From Methanobrevibacter sp. (lineage in GTDB: Archaea; Methanobacteriota; Methanobacteria; Methanobacteriales; Methanobacteriaceae): a stretch of DNA of 64,000 nt. This document shows positions 11,823-47,960 of this stretch, in pieces. Location: assembly GCA_022775905.1 (NCBI GenBank), contig JALFJX010000004.1, positions 1 through 64,000 of the forward strand. The letters run 5' to 3'. Numbering within the stretch: position 1 is the first letter of the stretch; every line of letters begins with the position of its first letter. A program made the position numbers and the translations under genes. A model generated the notes under the pieces. That model was not told where the DNA came from, searched no databases, and saw nothing but the letters and a program-made list of their open reading frames with translations.

Positions 11823-11834
11823 TTTCAAGTGTAA
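11823..11834 (+). other. Isolated origin-recognition-box-like site
   Basis: TTTCAAGTGTAA, exact match to the 12-mer repeated in the replication origin near 36.3-36.9 kb, here in the spacer between the convergent radical-SAM gene and the ParB-peptide gene. A potential Orc1/Cdc6 binding site outside the origin. Confidence 0.5.
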
Positions 11835-25964: not shown

Positions 25965-25976
25965 TTACACTTGAAA
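25965..25976 (-). other. Isolated origin-recognition-box-like site
   Basis: TTACACTTGAAA, exact 12-mer of the origin boxes, in the gatA-downstream spacer. It is followed by TTCACCTC, resembling the C-rich extension seen beside two origin copies. Confidence 0.5.
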
Positions 25977-26033
25977 TTCACCTCTATAATTTTATATCTA
26001 TAAAGATACAATAGATTATCAAGAGGTTATTTT

Positions 26034-34232: not shown

Positions 34233-35160
34233 AATATTTAGATTAAAGAACATAATTTCCGTGAAAGATTTTGAAAGAGAAGATATTGAATATATTCTAA
34301 ATGAAGCATCAAAATTAGAAAATATTGCCAAATCTAGAGAAATATCTGAAGAACTTAAAGGAAAAATTCTTGGGTTAATGTTTTTTGAACCTTCAACAAG
34401 GACTAAAATGTCATTTGAAACATCCATGAAACGTTTAAGTGGAGAATGCATTGGATTTGAAAATAGTGGATCTAGTTCAGTTTCTAAAGGTGAAAGTATT
34501 GCAGATACTGCAAAAATGTTTGAAGGATACTGTGATGCATTAGTTATAAGACATGAACTTGAAGGAGTATCAAAGTTTATTTCAGATGTAGTGGACGTGC
34601 CTGTAATCAATGCAGGTGATGGTGCTGGTCAACATCCTACCCAAACATTACTCGATTTATATACTATTAAAAATGAAATTGGAGAAATTGACAATTTAAA
34701 AATAGCTTTAATCGGTGATTTAAAATTTGGACGTACAGTTCACTCATTATCACATGCTTTAGGATTATTCAAAAACATTAAAATATATTTAATTTCACCA
34801 CCTGAACTTAAAATGCCACAGGAAGTTCTTCATGATTTGAATAAAACAAATGTTGAATATGAAGAAGTAGGTTCAATTGAAGAAATAATCGATGATGTAA
34901 ACGTTTTATATGTAACTAGAATACAAAAAGAACGTTTTGCTGACGTTAATGATTATTTAAAAATAAAAGGTGCATATGTCATCAATAAAAAATTAGTTGA
35001 AGGAAAAGATTTAATCATAATGCATCCATTACCAAGAATTGATGAAATAGACACTGATGTTGATAATACAAAATATAATAAGTATTTCACACAGGCAGCA
35101 AATGCTGTTCCTGTGAGAATGGCTATTTTAAAAACATTGATAAAAAACAACCCTAAATAG
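34225..35160 (+). CDS. pyrB: Aspartate carbamoyltransferase catalytic subunit
   Basis: Condenses carbamoyl phosphate with aspartate in pyrimidine synthesis. The 311-residue sequence carries the carbamoyl-phosphate motif [12 protein letters not shown] (near residue 52), the [11 protein letters not shown] loop near 134, [12 protein letters not shown] and [10 protein letters not shown] near the C terminus. No ATG exists near the family N terminus, so the TTG overlapping the previous gene by 8 bp is taken; slightly later starts are possible. pyrI is not adjacent. Its stop codon overlaps that of orc1 within a shared hairpin. Confidence 0.95.
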
Positions 35161-35175
35161 AGAATAGGGTTGTTT
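35145..35175. terminator. Bidirectional hairpin across the pyrB and orc1 stops
   Basis: Perfect 11-bp arms AAACAACCCTA (35145-35155) and TAGGGTTGTTT (35165-35175) with a 9-base loop. The arms contain the coding ends and stop codons of both convergent genes, so one structure serves both. Confidence 0.65.
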
Positions 35176-36316
35176 CAAGTAATGTTTCATCGCATTGAAG
35201 CTTGATAATATTAGTTCTTCCTTTTCCACGACCACGTGAAATTGTGTTAGTAGATATTATTCCTAACATTTCAAGCTCGTTAATAAAGTCAAATATTCTT
35301 CTGTAAGTAACTGCATCTTTTTTATATAAATCTGTATAAGCTTCATATAATTTTCCAGATGTAATTTCTTCTTTTTGTTTAGTTAAATTTAAAATAGACT
35401 CTAAAACTCTTTGTTGTTGAAGAGGTAAAGTGGATATGATTTCAATGACTTTATTATGTTCAATTTTATCTTTTGCTCTTTTTACATGATCATTTGTAAC
35501 TTTTGGAGAATCTTCATCAAAAGCTAATTCACCAGCATTTTTAAGTAAATCAAGAGCATACCTTGCATCACCCTCTTCTTTAGCAGCCATTGCTGAACAT
35601 AAAGGAATAACATCACTTTCAAGTACATTTTCATTGAAAGATATTTCTGCCCTTTCATTTAAAATATCAGACAATTGACCTGCTCCATAAGGTGGGAAAA
35701 CAATTTCTTTATCATTTAAACTACTTGTAACTCTAGATTTAATTAAATTTTTGAAATCTAAATAGTTACTAATACATAAAATAGAAACATTGTCTGTTCT
35801 GGTAAGAGTATATAAGATTCCATCTCCATCTTTATCAAGTAAAATATCAATTTCATCTAAAATAACAATTAAATGTAATTTTTTACCAAAAGCATTAGTT
35901 GACTTGAAAATATCCCTAAATGTATTTACAACTTCACCTTTAGTCCAACCACGATTTGGAACATCACGTCCAAGTTTATTACATAATTCTGCAATTACTT
36001 GATATTCAGTTGTGTAATCAGTACATCTAACATATTCCACTTTTACAAAAATACTTTTTTTACGAGCAATATCCATTAATTGCTCACGAGCAAATTTAGA
36101 TGCAGCTGTTTTACCAGTTCCAGTTTTACCATACAAAGTTACATTTGAAGGAGTTACATCACTTAATACATCAACCCAATATTTTGCAATTTGTTTTATT
36201 TGCTCTTCCCTGTGAACTAACTTATCAGGTAACCACCTATGATCCAATGGACGTTTATCCTTAAATATACTGGGTCCCTTTTCATCATTTTCCAATTGTT
36301 CAAAAATATTTGTCAT
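35153..36316 (-). CDS. orc1: Orc1/Cdc6 replication initiator
   Basis: AAA+ ATPase (387 residues) that binds origin recognition boxes and loads the MCM helicase. GKTGTGKT at residues 63-70 is Walker [13 protein letters not shown] near 145 is Walker B with the initiator-specific extension, CISNYLDF near 180 includes sensor 1, and [14 protein letters not shown] near 255 is sensor 2. The C-terminal 90 residues are the winged helix that reads DNA. The gene is transcribed away from an adjacent 630-bp region with several exact boxes, the classic archaeal layout of an initiator beside its own origin. Confidence 0.96.
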
Positions 36317-36354
36317 ATATCCACCTTAAATTTATAAAAAAAATTAGAGTATAA

Positions 36355-36366
36355 TTTCCAGTGTTA
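36355..36366 (+). other. Degenerate mini-ORB
   Basis: TTTCCAGTGTTA, two changes from TTTCAAGTGTAA and close to the haloarchaeal/Pyrococcus core TTCCAGTG. It lies just upstream of orc1 on the far side of the A/T-rich stretch. Confidence 0.5.
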
Positions 36367-36582
36367 ATAGTATAAAATGTATCATAAATAAACATTTGTA
36401 TTACAATTTTATAAAAAATTAATAAAATTAAGAAAAATCTAAAAAATTAAATTAATTAAAATGGATTAAATTAACAAAAACAAATTAAAATAAAGTAAAT
36501 AAATCATTTAAATAATTAAATTGAATTATATTCAAAAATAATTATTTAAATTAAATTAAATTTTGAATATGGAATGATACTA

Positions 36583-36594
36583 TTTCAAATATAA
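36583..36594 (+). other. Degenerate mini-ORB
   Basis: TTTCAAATATAA, two changes from the consensus, 20 bp before an exact box. Confidence 0.35.
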
Positions 36595-36602
36595 GATAAC
36601 AA

Positions 36603-36614
36603 TTTCAAGTGTAA
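36603..36614 (+). other. Mini-ORB, exact
   Basis: TTTCAAGTGTAA, bordering the A/T-rich candidate unwinding region. Confidence 0.75.
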
Positions 36615-36711
36615 AATTATAGGATAAAAAGCAAAAATTAATCCTTAATTAGAATATAAACATTACTTTTAAAAAATTTATCATGATTTTAAACTAAGAG
36701 AGGGACATGTG

Positions 36712-36723
36712 TTTCAAGTGTAA
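36712..36723 (+). other. Mini-ORB, exact, with C/T-rich extension
   Basis: TTTCAAGTGTAA preceded by GAGAGGGACATGTG; on the other strand this is the 12-mer followed by a CCCTCTC tail, i.e. a fuller ORB. Confidence 0.78.
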
Positions 36724-36758
36724 GAAAATTTAGCAAAAAACAAAAATCAAGACATACA

Positions 36759-36770
36759 TTTCAAGTGTAA
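36759..36770 (+). other. Mini-ORB, exact
   Basis: TTTCAAGTGTAA in the same direction as the preceding two, 47 bp further on. Confidence 0.75.
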
Positions 36771-36875
36771 AAAAATTTCAAATTTTAAAAAAATATTTAA
36801 ATTTAAAAACAAAGAAAAATTAGAACTTTAAATAGAAAATTAAGTGGTGAAAAAATAGAGATAAATTTCAAATGT

Positions 36876-36887
36876 TTACACTTGAAA
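36876..36887 (-). other. Mini-ORB, exact, inverted
   Basis: TTACACTTGAAA followed by TAGACCCC. A degenerate box in the opposite direction (36866-36877) overlaps it, making an imperfect dyad. Confidence 0.78.
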
Positions 36888-36922
36888 TAGACCCCTTCAT
36901 TCTGAATATACCTTCGGAAATG

Positions 36923-36934
36923 TTATACTTGAAA
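36923..36934 (-). other. Mini-ORB, one mismatch, with C/T-rich extension
   Basis: TTATACTTGAAA followed by TGCACCTCCCTCTCTC, the longest C/T tail in the region, 17 bp from the stop codon of the DUF2299 gene. Confidence 0.7.
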
Positions 36935-36950
36935 TGCACCTCCCTCTCTC

Positions 36951-37424
36951 TTAAATGAACATATCATTTTCATTGTTTGGAAAAGAAACATTGCCAAATT
37001 TTTTGTCAATTAACCAGATACAATGTAATTTAGATTTAAAAACTCTTTTCAATGTTTTAATGAATGCATCTTTTGTCAATCCATCTTCAAATATTTGATC
37101 GGTTATAATAAATTGTTGTAACATTTCATTATTAACTTGGAGCTCATAATCAACCAAAAAATTATTCAATCCAAAATTCAAATCTAAAATAAAATCTTTT
37201 TTTGTTTGTTGATCTGCTGGAATCATCAAGTTAATATGTTCAGGTGAAACTTGAGTTGCACATGCAATTACAATACAATCTTTTTGTTTTGGTTTTACAA
37301 TATCCATTATATTTTCTTTTGGAAATTCAACAATAAAATGAAAATCAGCATTTTCATCATATTTCATTTCTCTTAACATATCTTCGTCAAGTAACCATTT
37401 TTTAATTGTTTTTTCATCAATCAT
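36951..37424 (-). CDS. DUF2299-like protein beside the origin
   Basis: A 157-residue soluble protein that resembles the uncharacterised archaeal DUF2299 family. It is predicted as mixed alpha/beta with no membrane segment, signal peptide or nucleotide-binding motif. The sequence begins with a short helical region (MIDEKTIKKWLLDED), continues with strands such as ADFHFIVEFP and DCIVIACATQVSPEHI, and ends with a helix and FKSKLHCIWLIDKK. It is read toward the origin and is not in an operon. A role in replication is suggested only by position. Confidence 0.6.
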   Translation of the reverse strand: MIDEKTIKKWLLDEDMLREMKYDENADFHFIVEFPKENIMDIVKPKQKDCIVIACATQVSPEHINLMIPADQQTKKDFILDLNFGLNNFLVDYELQVNNEMLQQFIITDQIFEDGLTKDAFIKTLKRVFKSKLHCIWLIDKKFGNVSFPNNENDMFI

Positions 37425-37488
37425 AGTATCATCATTAAATATAATATAATAATAAATTATTTATTTTTTTATAAATATATAATAAAAT

Positions 37489-38526
37489 ATGATAGAATAT
37501 AATGAATTAATAAATAATGTAATGTTAACAAATATTAATAATATTGTTTCATTTAGGTTATTTTTGTTTATTATATGTACATTTATTTTTTCACTTGCAA
37601 TTGATGTCCTGTTCGGTGAACTTCCAGGAAAAATTCATCCTGTAGTCATAATGGGTTCAATTATTAATTATTTTAAAAGAAAATTTATTAATATAAAAAA
37701 TAGATTATCTGGATTAATGCTTGTTTTTTGTACCAGTATAACTTCAAGTGTATTGTTATTGATAATTTATTTAATAATAAAAAATAATATTATTTTATTT
37801 ATTTTATTATTTTCAATTATTTTATCTTCAACATTTTCAATAAAAATGTTATTACAAACTGCAATTGATGTCAAAAATGATTTAAGTACAGATATTGAAA
37901 AAGCAAGAAGATCTGTTTCTTATCTTGTTAGCAGAAATACTGATGAATTGACAGAAAGTTTCATCGTCTCAGCTGTTGTTGAAAGTTTGACTGAAAACAT
38001 AACTGATTCTTATGTTGCTCCAATTTTTTATTATTTCATATTTGGAATTATTATTTTATTGTATCCAGTACCATTTCAATTGTATTTCTTATTGTTAGTT
38101 CCTGTGTTGTATAGATTATCAAATACACAAGATGCAATGCTTGGATATACTACTGATGAATTGATTCACATTGGTTTTGTTGTTGCAAAAATAGATGATA
38201 TTCTAAATTATATACCTTCAAGAATTGCCGGATTATTTGTTGTAATTTCTGCATATCTACTTAATTTAGATGGAAAAAACAGTTTTAGAATTATGATGAG
38301 GGATGCTAGAAATTGTCCATCTCCAAATTCAGGTTATACAATGGCATCAACAGCAGGAGCATTGAATATTCAACTGATAAAAAAAGATACATATATTTTA
38401 GGTGATAATAATAAAAAAATCACATCAGATGATATTTCAAAGGCTGTTAATTTATCTAAATTATCAATTATTTTATTTACAATAACAATTATTATTTTAT
38501 TTACATTAATTTATGTGATATTATGA
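37489..38526 (+). CDS. cbiB: Adenosylcobinamide-phosphate synthase
   Basis: Membrane enzyme that attaches aminopropanol phosphate (or a similar linker) to adenosylcobyric acid. The 345-residue sequence has family blocks AIDVLFGELPGKIHPVVIMG (near residue 37), VSYLVSRNTDELTES near 145, PIFYYFIFG, and RDARNCPSPNSGYTMAS near 280. Four to five membrane segments are spread along it. The first 20 residues are a non-conserved extension, so a later start is possible. cbiG overlaps its stop by four bases. Confidence 0.93.
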   Translation: MIEYNELINNVMLTNINNIVSFRLFLFIICTFIFSLAIDVLFGELPGKIHPVVIMGSIINYFKRKFINIKNRLSGLMLVFCTSITSSVLLLIIYLIIKNNIILFILLFSIILSSTFSIKMLLQTAIDVKNDLSTDIEKARRSVSYLVSRNTDELTESFIVSAVVESLTENITDSYVAPIFYYFIFGIIILLYPVPFQLYFLLLVPVLYRLSNTQDAMLGYTTDELIHIGFVVAKIDDILNYIPSRIAGLFVVISAYLLNLDGKNSFRIMMRDARNCPSPNSGYTMASTAGALNIQLIKKDTYILGDNNKKITSDDISKAVNLSKLSIILFTITIIILFTLIYVIL

Positions 38527-39536
38527 AAATAGCAATTATCTCTGTTTCAGATAAAGGACAAAAATTAGCTTTAAACTTAAAAGAACAATTAGATGATGAT
38601 TCAACTGTATTAAAAACAGACATATATCATAAAAATGTCAAAAAACATTTTCCATATCTGTTCTATGAATATGATGCAATAATTGCAATAATGGCTTCTG
38701 GAATTTTAATCAGAACAATTGCTCCATTAATTGAATCAAAAGTTACAGATCCTGCTATTTTAAATATTGATGATAATGGTAACTTTGTCATTTCAACTTT
38801 ATCAGGTCATCTAGGAGGTGCTAATAAATTAACAAAAAAAATTGCTAATTTAATTGATGCTATACCTGTTATTACAACTTCTACTGATGTCAATAAAAAG
38901 TTGGGAATTGATGTTTTAGCTAAAGATCTTTATTTATCAATTGATAATACAAAAGAAATATTATTCTTCAACAAAGCTATTTTAGATGGGAAAAAACTTG
39001 AATTTACTATTAATCCAGAAAAAAATTTCAAATATTTATTTGAGTATATTGAAAAAGTTACACTTGAAATGGATGTCTCATTTTCTCATTCAAATGATGT
39101 TAATACAAATGAAATACATGTTGCATGTGATAATCACAAAATAATATTAAAAGAGAAGAGTATTGTTGTTGGTATTGGTTGTAGACGTGGAAAAGAATGT
39201 TTTAAAATTTATGAAGGGCTTTCTGATTCAATTGATAAATTAGGTATTCATATATCAAGAATTAACATGTTGTCTTCTGCTGAGATAAAAAAAGATGAAC
39301 AAGGAATTTTGGAACTTTCAGATAAGTTAAATATACCTGTTAATTTTGTAGGTTTGGATAAACTAAAACTTTTTGAATCAAATGATATTCAAAAATCAGA
39401 GTTTGTATATTCAAAATTTGGTATCTATGGTGTATGTGAACCTTCTGCATTGATTACAGCAGGATTTGATTCAAAATTAATATATAAAAAGACATCTTAT
39501 GATGGTGTTACAATATCTGTTGCAATTTCAAAATGA
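38523..39536 (+). CDS. cbiG: Cobalt-precorrin-5A hydrolase
   Basis: Opens the delta-lactone ring of cobalt-precorrin-5A, releasing acetaldehyde. At 337 residues it has the N-terminal domain with IIAIMASGILIRTIAP (near residue 58), NFVISTLSGHLGGANKL (near 96) and a TSTDVNKK stretch, and the C-terminal CbiG domain with VVGIGCRRGKEC (near 216) and GVCEPSALITAG (near 305). The ATGA start overlaps cbiB. An exact 12-bp origin box sits inside the coding region (39058-39069). Confidence 0.94.
   Translation: MKIAIISVSDKGQKLALNLKEQLDDDSTVLKTDIYHKNVKKHFPYLFYEYDAIIAIMASGILIRTIAPLIESKVTDPAILNIDDNGNFVISTLSGHLGGANKLTKKIANLIDAIPVITTSTDVNKKLGIDVLAKDLYLSIDNTKEILFFNKAILDGKKLEFTINPEKNFKYLFEYIEKVTLEMDVSFSHSNDVNTNEIHVACDNHKIILKEKSIVVGIGCRRGKECFKIYEGLSDSIDKLGIHISRINMLSSAEIKKDEQGILELSDKLNIPVNFVGLDKLKLFESNDIQKSEFVYSKFGIYGVCEPSALITAGFDSKLIYKKTSYDGVTISVAISK
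39058..39069 (-). other. Origin-recognition-box-like site inside cbiG
   Basis: TTACACTTGAAA, exact 12-mer, followed by TGGATGTCTC. It encodes Val-Thr-Leu-Glu-Met in cbiG, about 2.2 kb from the origin. Confidence 0.45.
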
Positions 39537-44900: not shown

Positions 44901-46163
44901 GTGAAAGAAAAACAGAAGAAGATACGCAGTTCACTATCTACTCGAGCATTAACTGAATTTTTCAGTGAACATAATCAGGTTATAAAAGAAGGTTTAATTG
45001 CTCTTTTAATTTGTGCTGTTGGAGATTTAATAGCAGGTATTGTCTTAGGTAAGATGACCTTTTTCCTTGAAGCATTTCCAGGTTTATTAGTTGTTATTCC
45101 TGGTGCTATTGGAATGAGGGGAAATATCTTTGGATCTTTTGCTTCAAGATTATCTACTAGCTTACACATTGGTTTAATTGCTCCACATTTTGAATTTTCA
45201 GAGGATTTAGACAATAATATCTTCGCATCATTTGTTTTAACATTGGTTTTATCAATATTTTTAGGTATTGTAGCTAAGCTATTCTGCATTTTATTACATT
45301 ATGAATCAATTGCATTAATGGATTTCATATTAATTTGTACAATTGCGGGCTTAATTTCTAATTTAATCATGCTTCCAATTACAATGCTTATTTCATTTAA
45401 AAGTTTTGAAAATGGATGGGATCCTGACAATATCACAAGTCCAATCATTGCGGGATTCGGTGATTTATTCACTCTTCCAGCTATTATAGCTTCAATTTTT
45501 CTTCTTCAAGCATTGAATGTTAATTTAATGATTAAAAATATTGTTTTTGTAATTCTTGTAATTGTTATTTTAGTAGGATTTATCCATTGTTACAGATTAT
45601 CTGATGAAACTAAAACAATTTTAAAACAATCTACTCCGACATTGATTTTATGTTCCTTTTTAGGAGGTTCTGCAGGCGGAATTTTAAACAGTTCAGTTGA
45701 AACATTACTTACTAATCCTAGTCTGCTTACATTGATACCATTATTCTCCGGTGAGTGTGGAAGTTTAATCAGTATTTTAGGTGCTAGATTATCATCAGGT
45801 CTTCACTCCGGTTTGGTTGAACCTTTATCAAGACCTACAGGTATTGCTCTTCATAACTTTGGAATTTGTTATATCTTGGCAATAATTGTTTTCCCATTGA
45901 TTGGAATACTTGCTGAAGCATCAACAATTTCTGTTGGAACAATTGGTGTTGGATTTGATAAAATCATTCCAATCAGTACATTATCTGGTCTTATTTTAGT
46001 TTCAATTATGATATTTGTTGTTTATTACATTTCAATAACCTCTTATAACAATAATTTGGATCCGGATAATATTGTAATTCCAATTTCAACCAGTGTTACT
46101 GATTCAATATCTAGTTTGATTTTAATTTCAATATCTTTGTTGATATTAGGTGCTTTAATTTAA
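44901..46163 (+). CDS. SLC41/MgtE-like divalent cation transporter
   Basis: Membrane protein of about 420 residues made of two homologous halves, each with an MgtE-type core of about five helices. The first contains PGAIGMRGNIFGSFASRLSTSLHIG and the WDPDNITSPIIAG motif; the second GECGSLISILGARLSSGLHSG and LDPDNIVIPISTS. The paired Asp of DPDN line the Mg pore in MgtE. No cytosolic CBS domains are attached. GTG at 44901 is preferred over GTG at 44892 from the AGGT spacing. It acts with the PhoU/TrkA-C protein upstream. Mg or another divalent ion is likely. Confidence 0.87.
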   Translation: MKEKQKKIRSSLSTRALTEFFSEHNQVIKEGLIALLICAVGDLIAGIVLGKMTFFLEAFPGLLVVIPGAIGMRGNIFGSFASRLSTSLHIGLIAPHFEFSEDLDNNIFASFVLTLVLSIFLGIVAKLFCILLHYESIALMDFILICTIAGLISNLIMLPITMLISFKSFENGWDPDNITSPIIAGFGDLFTLPAIIASIFLLQALNVNLMIKNIVFVILVIVILVGFIHCYRLSDETKTILKQSTPTLILCSFLGGSAGGILNSSVETLLTNPSLLTLIPLFSGECGSLISILGARLSSGLHSGLVEPLSRPTGIALHNFGICYILAIIVFPLIGILAEASTISVGTIGVGFDKIIPISTLSGLILVSIMIFVVYYISITSYNNNLDPDNIVIPISTSVTDSISSLILISISLLILGALI

Positions 46164-47026
46164 TACCAAGCCTTTAAGACAAATTGACATTCATTTATCC
46201 TAAAATAATCATAACTTAATTTATTTTTATCAAAATTTTTAGGAACACTAACTAAAACGGCCTTGGCTTTGGGTTTGTCAATGTGAATAAATACAATTGC
46301 ATCTGTATCATCATAAAAATCAATCTTATCATTTAAATAGATTTGATTGGACATTGTATTTTCCCAATATTTTTCTTTAACAACTCTTGTCGTATCAATA
46401 ATGAATTTTAAGTTATATTTTTCATTATCATCAATCAACAAATAGTAATCTGACTTTTTTAGATTGCTCTTAAAGACTTTAAAATAGTTGCAGCTATGGG
46501 ATTTTTGGTCGTGGTCGTGGTTGCATTTTCCATCATTTTGAAAGTCTTTTATGACATATTTTTTGTAAAAATCGCATTTGACTAATCTGTTAACTGAAAA
46601 GATGTTACTTGGTTCATTTTCTTCACCAATTTTTACACTTGAAATAGACCTCTCGAGAGGTATTAATTCCATTGAAGAATGAATCTTCGAGTCGAATAAC
46701 TTTTCATATCCTAACTGTTTGTAATTTTTTCCAAGGGCAATCAGTTTTACATATGAAACGCTATTGGGAATAGATTCCCCTCCTTCATTTACAATTGAAA
46801 GACCTGGTGTTCCTTTTTCATATTCAAACCATTTTTCAGGTATTCCAGGATTGTTAATTAAATTGTCAATAACTTCGGATGTTAAAATTTCCATATGTTC
46901 CTGTTCTTGTGTTTTAATAATTTTGTTAGTGGTATTTTCATAGGATGTTAAAAAAACACCAAAAATCAATAAGATAATTACTAAAACAACTGTAATTTCT
47001 ATTGTTATGCTTCCTTTACTGTCCAT
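46160..47026 (-). CDS. Pilin-like membrane protein with Cys/His cluster
   Basis: A 288-residue protein of unrecognised family. The start MDSKGSITIEITVVLVIILLIF looks like an archaeal class III (pilin-type) signal or a TadE-like anchor: a short basic head, then a Glu followed by an uninterrupted hydrophobic helix. The remaining 255 residues are extracytoplasmic and beta-rich, with a KCNHDHDQKSHSC segment near residue 180 that may bind metal. It is the second gene of a pair with a similar protein, overlapping it by 11 bp, and GGTTG precedes the start. An origin-box-like site lies in the coding region. Confidence 0.7.
   Translation of the reverse strand: MDSKGSITIEITVVLVIILLIFGVFLTSYENTTNKIIKTQEQEHMEILTSEVIDNLINNPGIPEKWFEYEKGTPGLSIVNEGGESIPNSVSYVKLIALGKNYKQLGYEKLFDSKIHSSMELIPLERSISSVKIGEENEPSNIFSVNRLVKCDFYKKYVIKDFQNDGKCNHDHDQKSHSCNYFKVFKSNLKKSDYYLLIDDNEKYNLKFIIDTTRVVKEKYWENTMSNQIYLNDKIDFYDDTDAIVFIHIDKPKAKAVLVSVPKNFDKNKLSYDYFRINECQFVLKAWY
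46633..46660 (-). other. ORB-like site with adjoining palindrome inside a pilin-like gene
   Basis: TTACACTTGAAA (46633-46644) followed by TAGACC and the perfect palindrome CCTCTCGAGAGG (46649-46660). The 19 bases TTTACACTTGAAATAGACC are identical to those at 36875-36893 in the origin, so this looks like a fuller ORB copy, not chance. Confidence 0.55.
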
Positions 47027-47960
47027 CATCTTCAACCAATCCATATTTTTTTCTGTGAGAATCATCTAAAATCAAGCTATTCCAGTCATCGGGATCTATT
47101 TTTTCTCCGTTATAGTGGTCTGCAAAAACAACATGGTCCGAACAGGATAGTGACTCGTTTGTTAGTGGAGTATGAGTTTGAATAAACACTTCAAATCCAT
47201 AATGGGGACACTTCCCTTTTCCCTCTAGTCTGCATAGATAACAGCTTCCATCAGCACTTTCATGAAAATATCCCTGTTTAAGGCAATCATCAAGAACTCC
47301 TGGATCTCCATGATGAATGTAAGGGTCATAAGGGCATTTTTTAATGTATAATGGTGCTGTTGCTTCAATGTATGATTCGGGTGATTTGAAATTGTGCAAA
47401 AGCATATATGCAGATAATCCGGTTTTATAATGAATTTGATTGTCATATGTTAGAATTCCAGATGCTATTGTCAGTTTAGCTATCGGGAGTGGATCTCTTA
47501 ATCCTTCAACAGATGCATTCTTCTCAACAATCTTTGAATATCTTTCATTTCCTTTCTGTATGTTCAGTTTAATTTTAAAAAGTATTTGCCATGGTGAGTC
47601 TGTTGGTTCTACAGAAATGGTTTCAGAAGTAATTTTAATACCATATTTCTCTTTATATTCCTTATTTTTTTCATCAAGAATATTATTTAAGTTTTTCTTG
47701 ATTTGATTTGGACTATTTGTCACTGGAAGGCCATTAAAAACTTTTTGTGTAGCTTCAGCTATTGCATTCCTTCCGTCAATCTTTAGGTTTTGAGTGTAAT
47801 CATCGATTATATATTTGAAATTATCATTTTGCTGAGAGTCAATATTTTCATTTTGAATGTAATTTATGGATGTTACAACAAAAATACAAATTAATAATAA
47901 TGCTACAATTAAAATAGCAGTTGTTCCTACAATTAAATTTCCTTTAGAGCCGATTTTCAT
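47016..47960 (-). CDS. Pilin-like membrane protein, first gene of the pair
   Basis: A 314-residue protein with the start MKIGSKGNLIVGTTAILIVALLLIC, a short basic head and a long hydrophobic helix as in pilin/TadE-like proteins, then an extracytoplasmic region of about 280 residues. Cys and His occur together in KKCPYDPYIHHGDPG, GSCYLCRLEGKGKCPHYG and SCSDHV (about residues 205-275), suggesting metal binding or disulfides. No known domain is visible. Co-transcribed with the following pilin-like gene. A shared surface or secretion role is inferred from the pair alone. Confidence 0.7.
   Translation of the reverse strand: MKIGSKGNLIVGTTAILIVALLLICIFVVTSINYIQNENIDSQQNDNFKYIIDDYTQNLKIDGRNAIAEATQKVFNGLPVTNSPNQIKKNLNNILDEKNKEYKEKYGIKITSETISVEPTDSPWQILFKIKLNIQKGNERYSKIVEKNASVEGLRDPLPIAKLTIASGILTYDNQIHYKTGLSAYMLLHNFKSPESYIEATAPLYIKKCPYDPYIHHGDPGVLDDCLKQGYFHESADGSCYLCRLEGKGKCPHYGFEVFIQTHTPLTNESLSCSDHVVFADHYNGEKIDPDDWNSLILDDSHRKKYGLVEDDGQ

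Follow-up and report, generated by a model that had tools for sequence, protein, structure and literature searches.

A probable replication origin beside orc1/cdc6 in Methanobrevibacter and a conserved set of the same sites outside it

The origin region and its relatives

The window analysed here, the whole 64,000-nucleotide stretch of DNA from the gut methanogen Methanobrevibacter sp., is part of contig C4 (79,831 bp) of a 1.83-Mb genome in 37 contigs. Its minus strand carries the orc1/cdc6 initiator gene (Orc1-1) at 35153-36316, with matches to TIGR02928 (E 8e-119), the Cdc6 winged helix PF09079 and PF22703, which bears out the view that an initiator gene adjoins the sites described below. 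Its identity to Orc1 in named records of Methanobrevibacter, Methanosphaera and other members of the Methanobacteriaceae is 62-88%. The gene for the DNA polymerase D small subunit (NF003120; 40722-42515, minus strand) lies near the origin, and linkage of this gene with the origin region is described in PMC2643942. Several genomes of other genera of the family also encode a third, shorter Orc1-like protein, covering only the first ~270 profile positions.

Next to orc1, five sites of the 12-mer TTTCAAGTGTAA, which we take to be the mini-ORB of Methanothermobacter, occupy 36603-36934 and point both ways about an A/T-rich core; four are exact and one has a single mismatch. Mini-ORB A (36603-36614, plus strand, exact) is kept in most genomes of the genus. 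It is followed by the exact plus-strand sites B (36712-36723) and C (36759-36770), 47 bp apart with conserved spacing, which face the minus-strand sites D (36876-36887, exact) and E (36923-36934, one mismatch), again 47 bp apart. Two weaker plus-strand matches, each with two mismatches, complete the picture: one at 36355-36366, near chance level alone, and one at 36583-36594, also present in the closed relative G029. Such two-mismatch sites carry little weight alone, as the window holds 38 matches with up to two mismatches vs 21 expected. The sequence-only reading had claimed at least four exact and three degenerate 12-mers in two orientations, and this is confirmed. When the 634-bp stretch was simulated 200,000 times with a first-order Markov model, at least two exact sites never occurred, and a single exact site occurred in 67 simulations. 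Genome-wide, TTTCAAGTGTAA occurs exactly 16 times, whereas the reversed control is absent.

The same reading described an A/T-only stretch, which holds for short runs of 31 bp (36534-36564) and 30 bp (36780-36809) but not beyond them. The 200 bp of lowest G+C in the whole window, 36371-36570, still contain 8% G+C, and the nearly coincident A/T-rich stretch between orc1 and the sites (36381-36580) contains 9.5%. The core between the conserved facing pairs, at 36771-36875, has 13.3% G+C and is likely the unwinding element. An Rfam search of 36000-37500 returned no match to an RNA element at oriC.

This facing layout recurs in the genus, with two plus-strand sites 47-49 bp apart opposite two minus-strand sites 47-49 bp apart. 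Among 31 genus genomes, 27 (+,+) pairs and 20 (-,-) pairs show this spacing. The gap between facing sites, 105 bp in the window, ranges from 93 to 152 bp in the 27 genomes that have both kinds with at most one mismatch; where the gap is longer, a weaker site has probably been passed over. At the family level, 80 named loci were compared. The upstream side of orc1 extends for at least 1 kb in 70 of them, and all but one of these 70, hence 69, display at least two sites (at most one mismatch) there. In the sole exception, L042, an inserted ORF displaces the cluster: a 1782-aa ORF at L042:4326-9674 splits orc1 from its mini-ORBs, which are retained ~5.4 kb off. The Methanosphaera and related loci L077, L080, L082-L084 and L086 have five minus-strand oriC sites ~50-56 bp apart, and these arrays much resemble a second array in the window's own genus, described below.

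GC skew offers a further view of the region. In the window itself the cumulative skew displays just a broad floor at ~20-44 kb. In the closed genome of the relative G029, whose Orc1 is 88% identical to that of the window, 25 stretches were sampled. The skew is negative in both stretches sampled before orc1 (41 kb), positive in 13 of 14 between 40 kb and 1.07 Mb (the exception being -0.007 at 170 kb), and negative in 9 of 9 from 1.2 Mb to the end. The sign hence switches at orc1 and again about half-way round, in a sample of one relative and with gene direction contributing to the skew. This check, proposed with the sequence-only reading, could have placed the origin elsewhere and did not. Recurrence of the clusters beside orc1 in the family and the skew switch in G029 both support the origin reading, and the flagged stretch is very probably the chromosomal replication origin.

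Conserved sites outside the origin

The origin interpretation is right yet incomplete: our results support that the same sites also form a conserved set outside the origin. Beyond the flagged stretch, C4 carries another five exact copies that the sequence-only reading missed, and it also missed a second cluster on contig C34. On C4 these copies start at 11823, 25965, 39058 and 46633 in the window and at 69114 beyond it, near -24, -10, +2.7, +10 and +33 kb. When the motif is extended to the 21-mer AGAGGTGNATTTCAAGTGTAA and up to three mismatches are allowed, 14 places are found in the genome, whereas the control gives 1. Among the 14 are every one of the three C34 copies and the satellites at 25965, 46633, 39058 and C4:69114.

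The left satellite (25965-25985, minus strand, -10 kb) is a full 21-mer, and the ORF of a cobB-like gene starts 57 bp after it. In the set of 31 genomes, the gene of G008 and G037 lies at the edge of or outside the sequence compared; the site is exact in 26 of the other 29 and has one mismatch in three (G017, G024 and G030). Across 11 aligned genomes, 13 of its bases are invariant while the flanks have diverged. In most genomes ~70 bp separate the site from the cobB-like match, and more in G011, G021 and G034; its distance from orc1 varies from -9.8 to -13.1 kb. TATA-like bases are seen at window positions 25977-26033, between the satellite and the cobB-like ORF.

The right satellite (46633-46653, minus strand, +10 kb) resides inside an ORF at 46160-47065 (minus strand). 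It is exact in 24 of 27 genomes and has one mismatch in two (G016 and G021); G030 has neither the gene match nor the site, and G007, G008, G017 and G032 are not covered. Its codons ATT TCA AGT GTA never vary in genomes that retain the residue (24-25 of 26), in an alignment where G021, with its one-mismatch site, is out of register and G016 has one base changed. As a background, none of 27 sixfold and none of 27 fourfold conserved columns reaches 95% codon identity. In genomes having both serines, the two are always encoded from two codon families, so that protein constraint offers no explanation.

The satellite at +2.7 kb (39058-39078, minus strand) lies inside cbiG, exact in 5 and with one mismatch in 19 of 29 genomes, and absent in G015, G019, G024, G030 and G031. 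All 25 genomes that have the residues in question encode them by the same ACA and CTT codons; of the background columns, none of 59 fourfold and none of 55 sixfold ones is so conserved. The two outermost sites are weaker than the other satellites. The one at -24 kb (11823-11834, plus strand) consists of the core only, between convergent ORFs, and is found in 6 of 11 covered genomes. The one at +33 kb has a homologous site in 6 of 10 aligned genomes; two others share a different site, and two have further exact sites.

Could the origin alone matter, with the outside copies being chance matches preserved by synteny or protein constraint? The region is indeed syntenic, and any 12-mer turns up occasionally in an A/T-rich genome. 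However, the reversed control is absent from the genome, and across the genus (41 genomes) it totals 36 copies vs 471 exact copies of TTTCAAGTGTAA. For both 10-kb sites chance is contradicted directly, by the 13 invariant bases in drifting intergenic DNA on the left and by the invariant codons on the right. This explanation is therefore very improbable, and we have hardly any doubt that the outside sites are functional. Judged from their sequence, they are very likely bound by Orc1.

The sites are also unevenly distributed along the chromosome. In the four closed genus genomes with exact lengths, on which we rely, 3, 6, 5 and 3 sites lie 2.5-50 kb from orc1 vs 0.15, 0.23, 0.39 and 0.11 expected from the rest; as the genomes are related, the four are not independent. 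Outside the genus, lengths are approximate (G041, G051, G052 and G054), and a clear near-origin excess is seen in two of these four closed genomes, being absent or weak in G041 (P 0.24) and G052 (P 0.044). A fixed distance from the origin is ruled out as the conserved quantity, as the left satellite reaches -13.1 kb and the right one +12.9 kb in some genomes with unchanged gene context. Since the distances vary and the left site moves along with its gene, gene order may be all that lies behind the ±10 kb symmetry. Nor do the satellites appear family-wide: among the matches listed for other genera, none lies at the ±10 kb places. In four loci of a sister clade (L051, L059, L066 and L069) a separate exact site is located upstream of orc1, at ~4.6-5.0 kb, which hints that satellites may be lineage-specific. 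Farther from the origin, an isolated full 21-mer at G000:C36:75092 and G010:C3:78028, common to two species, precedes a conserved ORF by ~50 bp. Another far site lies inside homologous genes of G000, G014 and G034, ~118 kb from orc1 in G014 and G034.

The position of some sites is reminiscent of operators, through which Orc1, or a protein of the same specificity, would regulate neighbouring genes and link metabolism or cell-wall genes to replication. The left satellite with TATA-like bases between it and the cobB-like ORF, the C36 site just before an ORF, and the location of the second array upstream of a YtfJ-like gene all agree with such a role. The most constrained satellite, in contrast, is placed ~420 bp inside an ORF with a convergent downstream neighbour, the cbiG site is placed likewise, and the -24 kb site separates convergent ORFs; a near-origin excess is also unexpected of a regulon. 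Promoter-like positions are compatible with a role in transcription, and the sites inside genes with convergent neighbours argue against it as a complete explanation. As an account of the outside sites, we consider regulation unlikely.

Bacterial parS sites are likewise short and dispersed near the origin, some of them in genes. The outside sites might organise or segregate the origin region in a parS-like manner, bound by Orc1 or another protein, and their dispersed single occurrence, near-origin excess and codon constraint within genes would all suit this role. ParB/parS itself we reject, as the PF02195 profile detects no ParB_N protein in the genome (control genomes were positive in 10 of 14). 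Moreover, the outside sites are the same as those at oriC, which makes Orc1 the simpler binder. A parS-like function appears improbable.

The array near the second orc1/cdc6 gene

Contig C34 carries three exact TTTCAAGTGTAA copies, the second cluster of the genome. An array of this kind is present in 15 of 20 assessable genomes (G016, where the region is cut short, is outside these 20); its 2-5 exact copies all have the same orientation and are mostly spaced by 46-57 bp. It is flanked by the YtfJ-like gene and an aminotransferase gene, and the second orc1/cdc6 gene lies ~3-5 kb away. The five genomes without the array (G034, G011, G014, G020 and G021) keep cdc6-2. Their Orc1 is at most 76% identical to that of the window in every case, and identity is at least 80% in the 14 measured of the 15 genomes with the array. 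Judged by these Orc1 identities, the array may have been gained or lost a single time.

Proximity to a second initiator gene and a spacing of ~53 bp, as in the Methanosphaera oriC arrays, could be explained by a second origin at this position. Against this, the skew remains steady at the array in G029 (272 kb; 25 sampled stretches), although weak origin use is compatible with that, the sites all point one way, and the array is missing from a quarter of the genomes that keep cdc6-2. We set the second origin aside as improbable.

Possible initiator titration and comparison with known systems

To our knowledge, it is poorly understood how double firing is prevented in archaea with a single origin. 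The origin described here is itself ordinary; its conserved satellites hint that DNA replication may be controlled at a further level. We favor, at a probability of roughly 55%, one oriC together with dispersed Orc1 sites that most likely titrate the initiator after firing. This reading builds on site positions, conservation, codon-level constraint and the skew at orc1 in a relative, from which we infer Orc1 binding, core unwinding and titration. Orc1 would bind the mini-ORBs at oriC, whose A/T-rich core lies between the facing pairs B,C and D,E, and oriC would be the place of helicase loading. Selection would keep the same sites outside the origin, as single satellites and as a directional array near the second orc1/cdc6 gene, and these would hold Orc1 away from the origin. 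As most of them are close to the origin, we propose that they are doubled soon after firing, so that free Orc1 drops and a second start is hindered, much as has been put forward for Haloarcula oriC2D and E. coli datA; the near-origin excess suits titration by such early doubling. Against this reading, Haloarcula oriC2D has 11 ORBs and the outside sites here are few by comparison, and 5 of 20 genomes lack the second array. That titration is their main role is, taken by itself, close to an even bet and somewhat short of it.

More tentatively, the initiator sites might form a conserved chromosomal map, with two of them in coding genes at the expense of codon freedom and with the array, acting as a dosage clock or centromere-like organiser that ensures one start per cycle. 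In the open-licence literature searched we found no mention of such outside sites in Methanobacteria, and as far as that literature shows, the conserved set appears undescribed for this group. Having named conserved sites outside oriC makes once-per-cycle control of the origin directly testable, and the in-gene sites clearly exemplify how a signal for chromosome maintenance can constrain codon choice.

The locus resembles archaeal oriC of Methanothermobacter and Sulfolobus oriC1, with its initiator gene, opposed clustered sites, A/T-rich core and nearby polymerase D small subunit gene. Of the features of an Orc1-type oriC, it has the adjacent orc1/cdc6, opposed repeats around an A/T-rich core and, in the relative G029, a skew switch. 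In the archaeal ORB consensus, as given in Table 2 of PMC4153887, GGGG follows GAAAC on the same strand, whereas here a G-rich AGAGGT precedes TTTCAAGTGTAA, an apparent difference that depends on which orientations correspond. The satellites resemble bacterial parS in being dispersed near the origin, some in genes, and differ in that no ParB is found in the genome.

A close parallel for the outside sites is oriC2D of Haloarcula hispanica, where, according to PMC3936714, genetics shows that extra ORBs restrain an origin without being one themselves, and titration is the authors' likely mechanism. The extra initiator sites of that species form an array which is regarded as separate from the origin and not as an origin in its own right, and by sequence the C34 array and satellites would likewise represent clustered initiator sites outside an origin. 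In oriC2D, however, the 11 ORBs are directly downstream of the same cdc6, whereas here single sites spread over tens of kb and the array is near the other orc1/cdc6. PMC4010727 compares oriC2D-type titration with E. coli datA, where sites away from the origin are likewise proposed to titrate the initiator; at datA this initiator is DnaA, whereas the initiator here would be archaeal Orc1, held at mostly single sites. Finally, PMC2643942 describes an ORB/mini-ORB inside the DP1 gene of Thermococcales, which similarly places initiator sites within a coding gene near the origin. The genes involved here are different ones, cbiG and an unnamed ORF, and constraint on the sites within them is seen at the level of individual codons.
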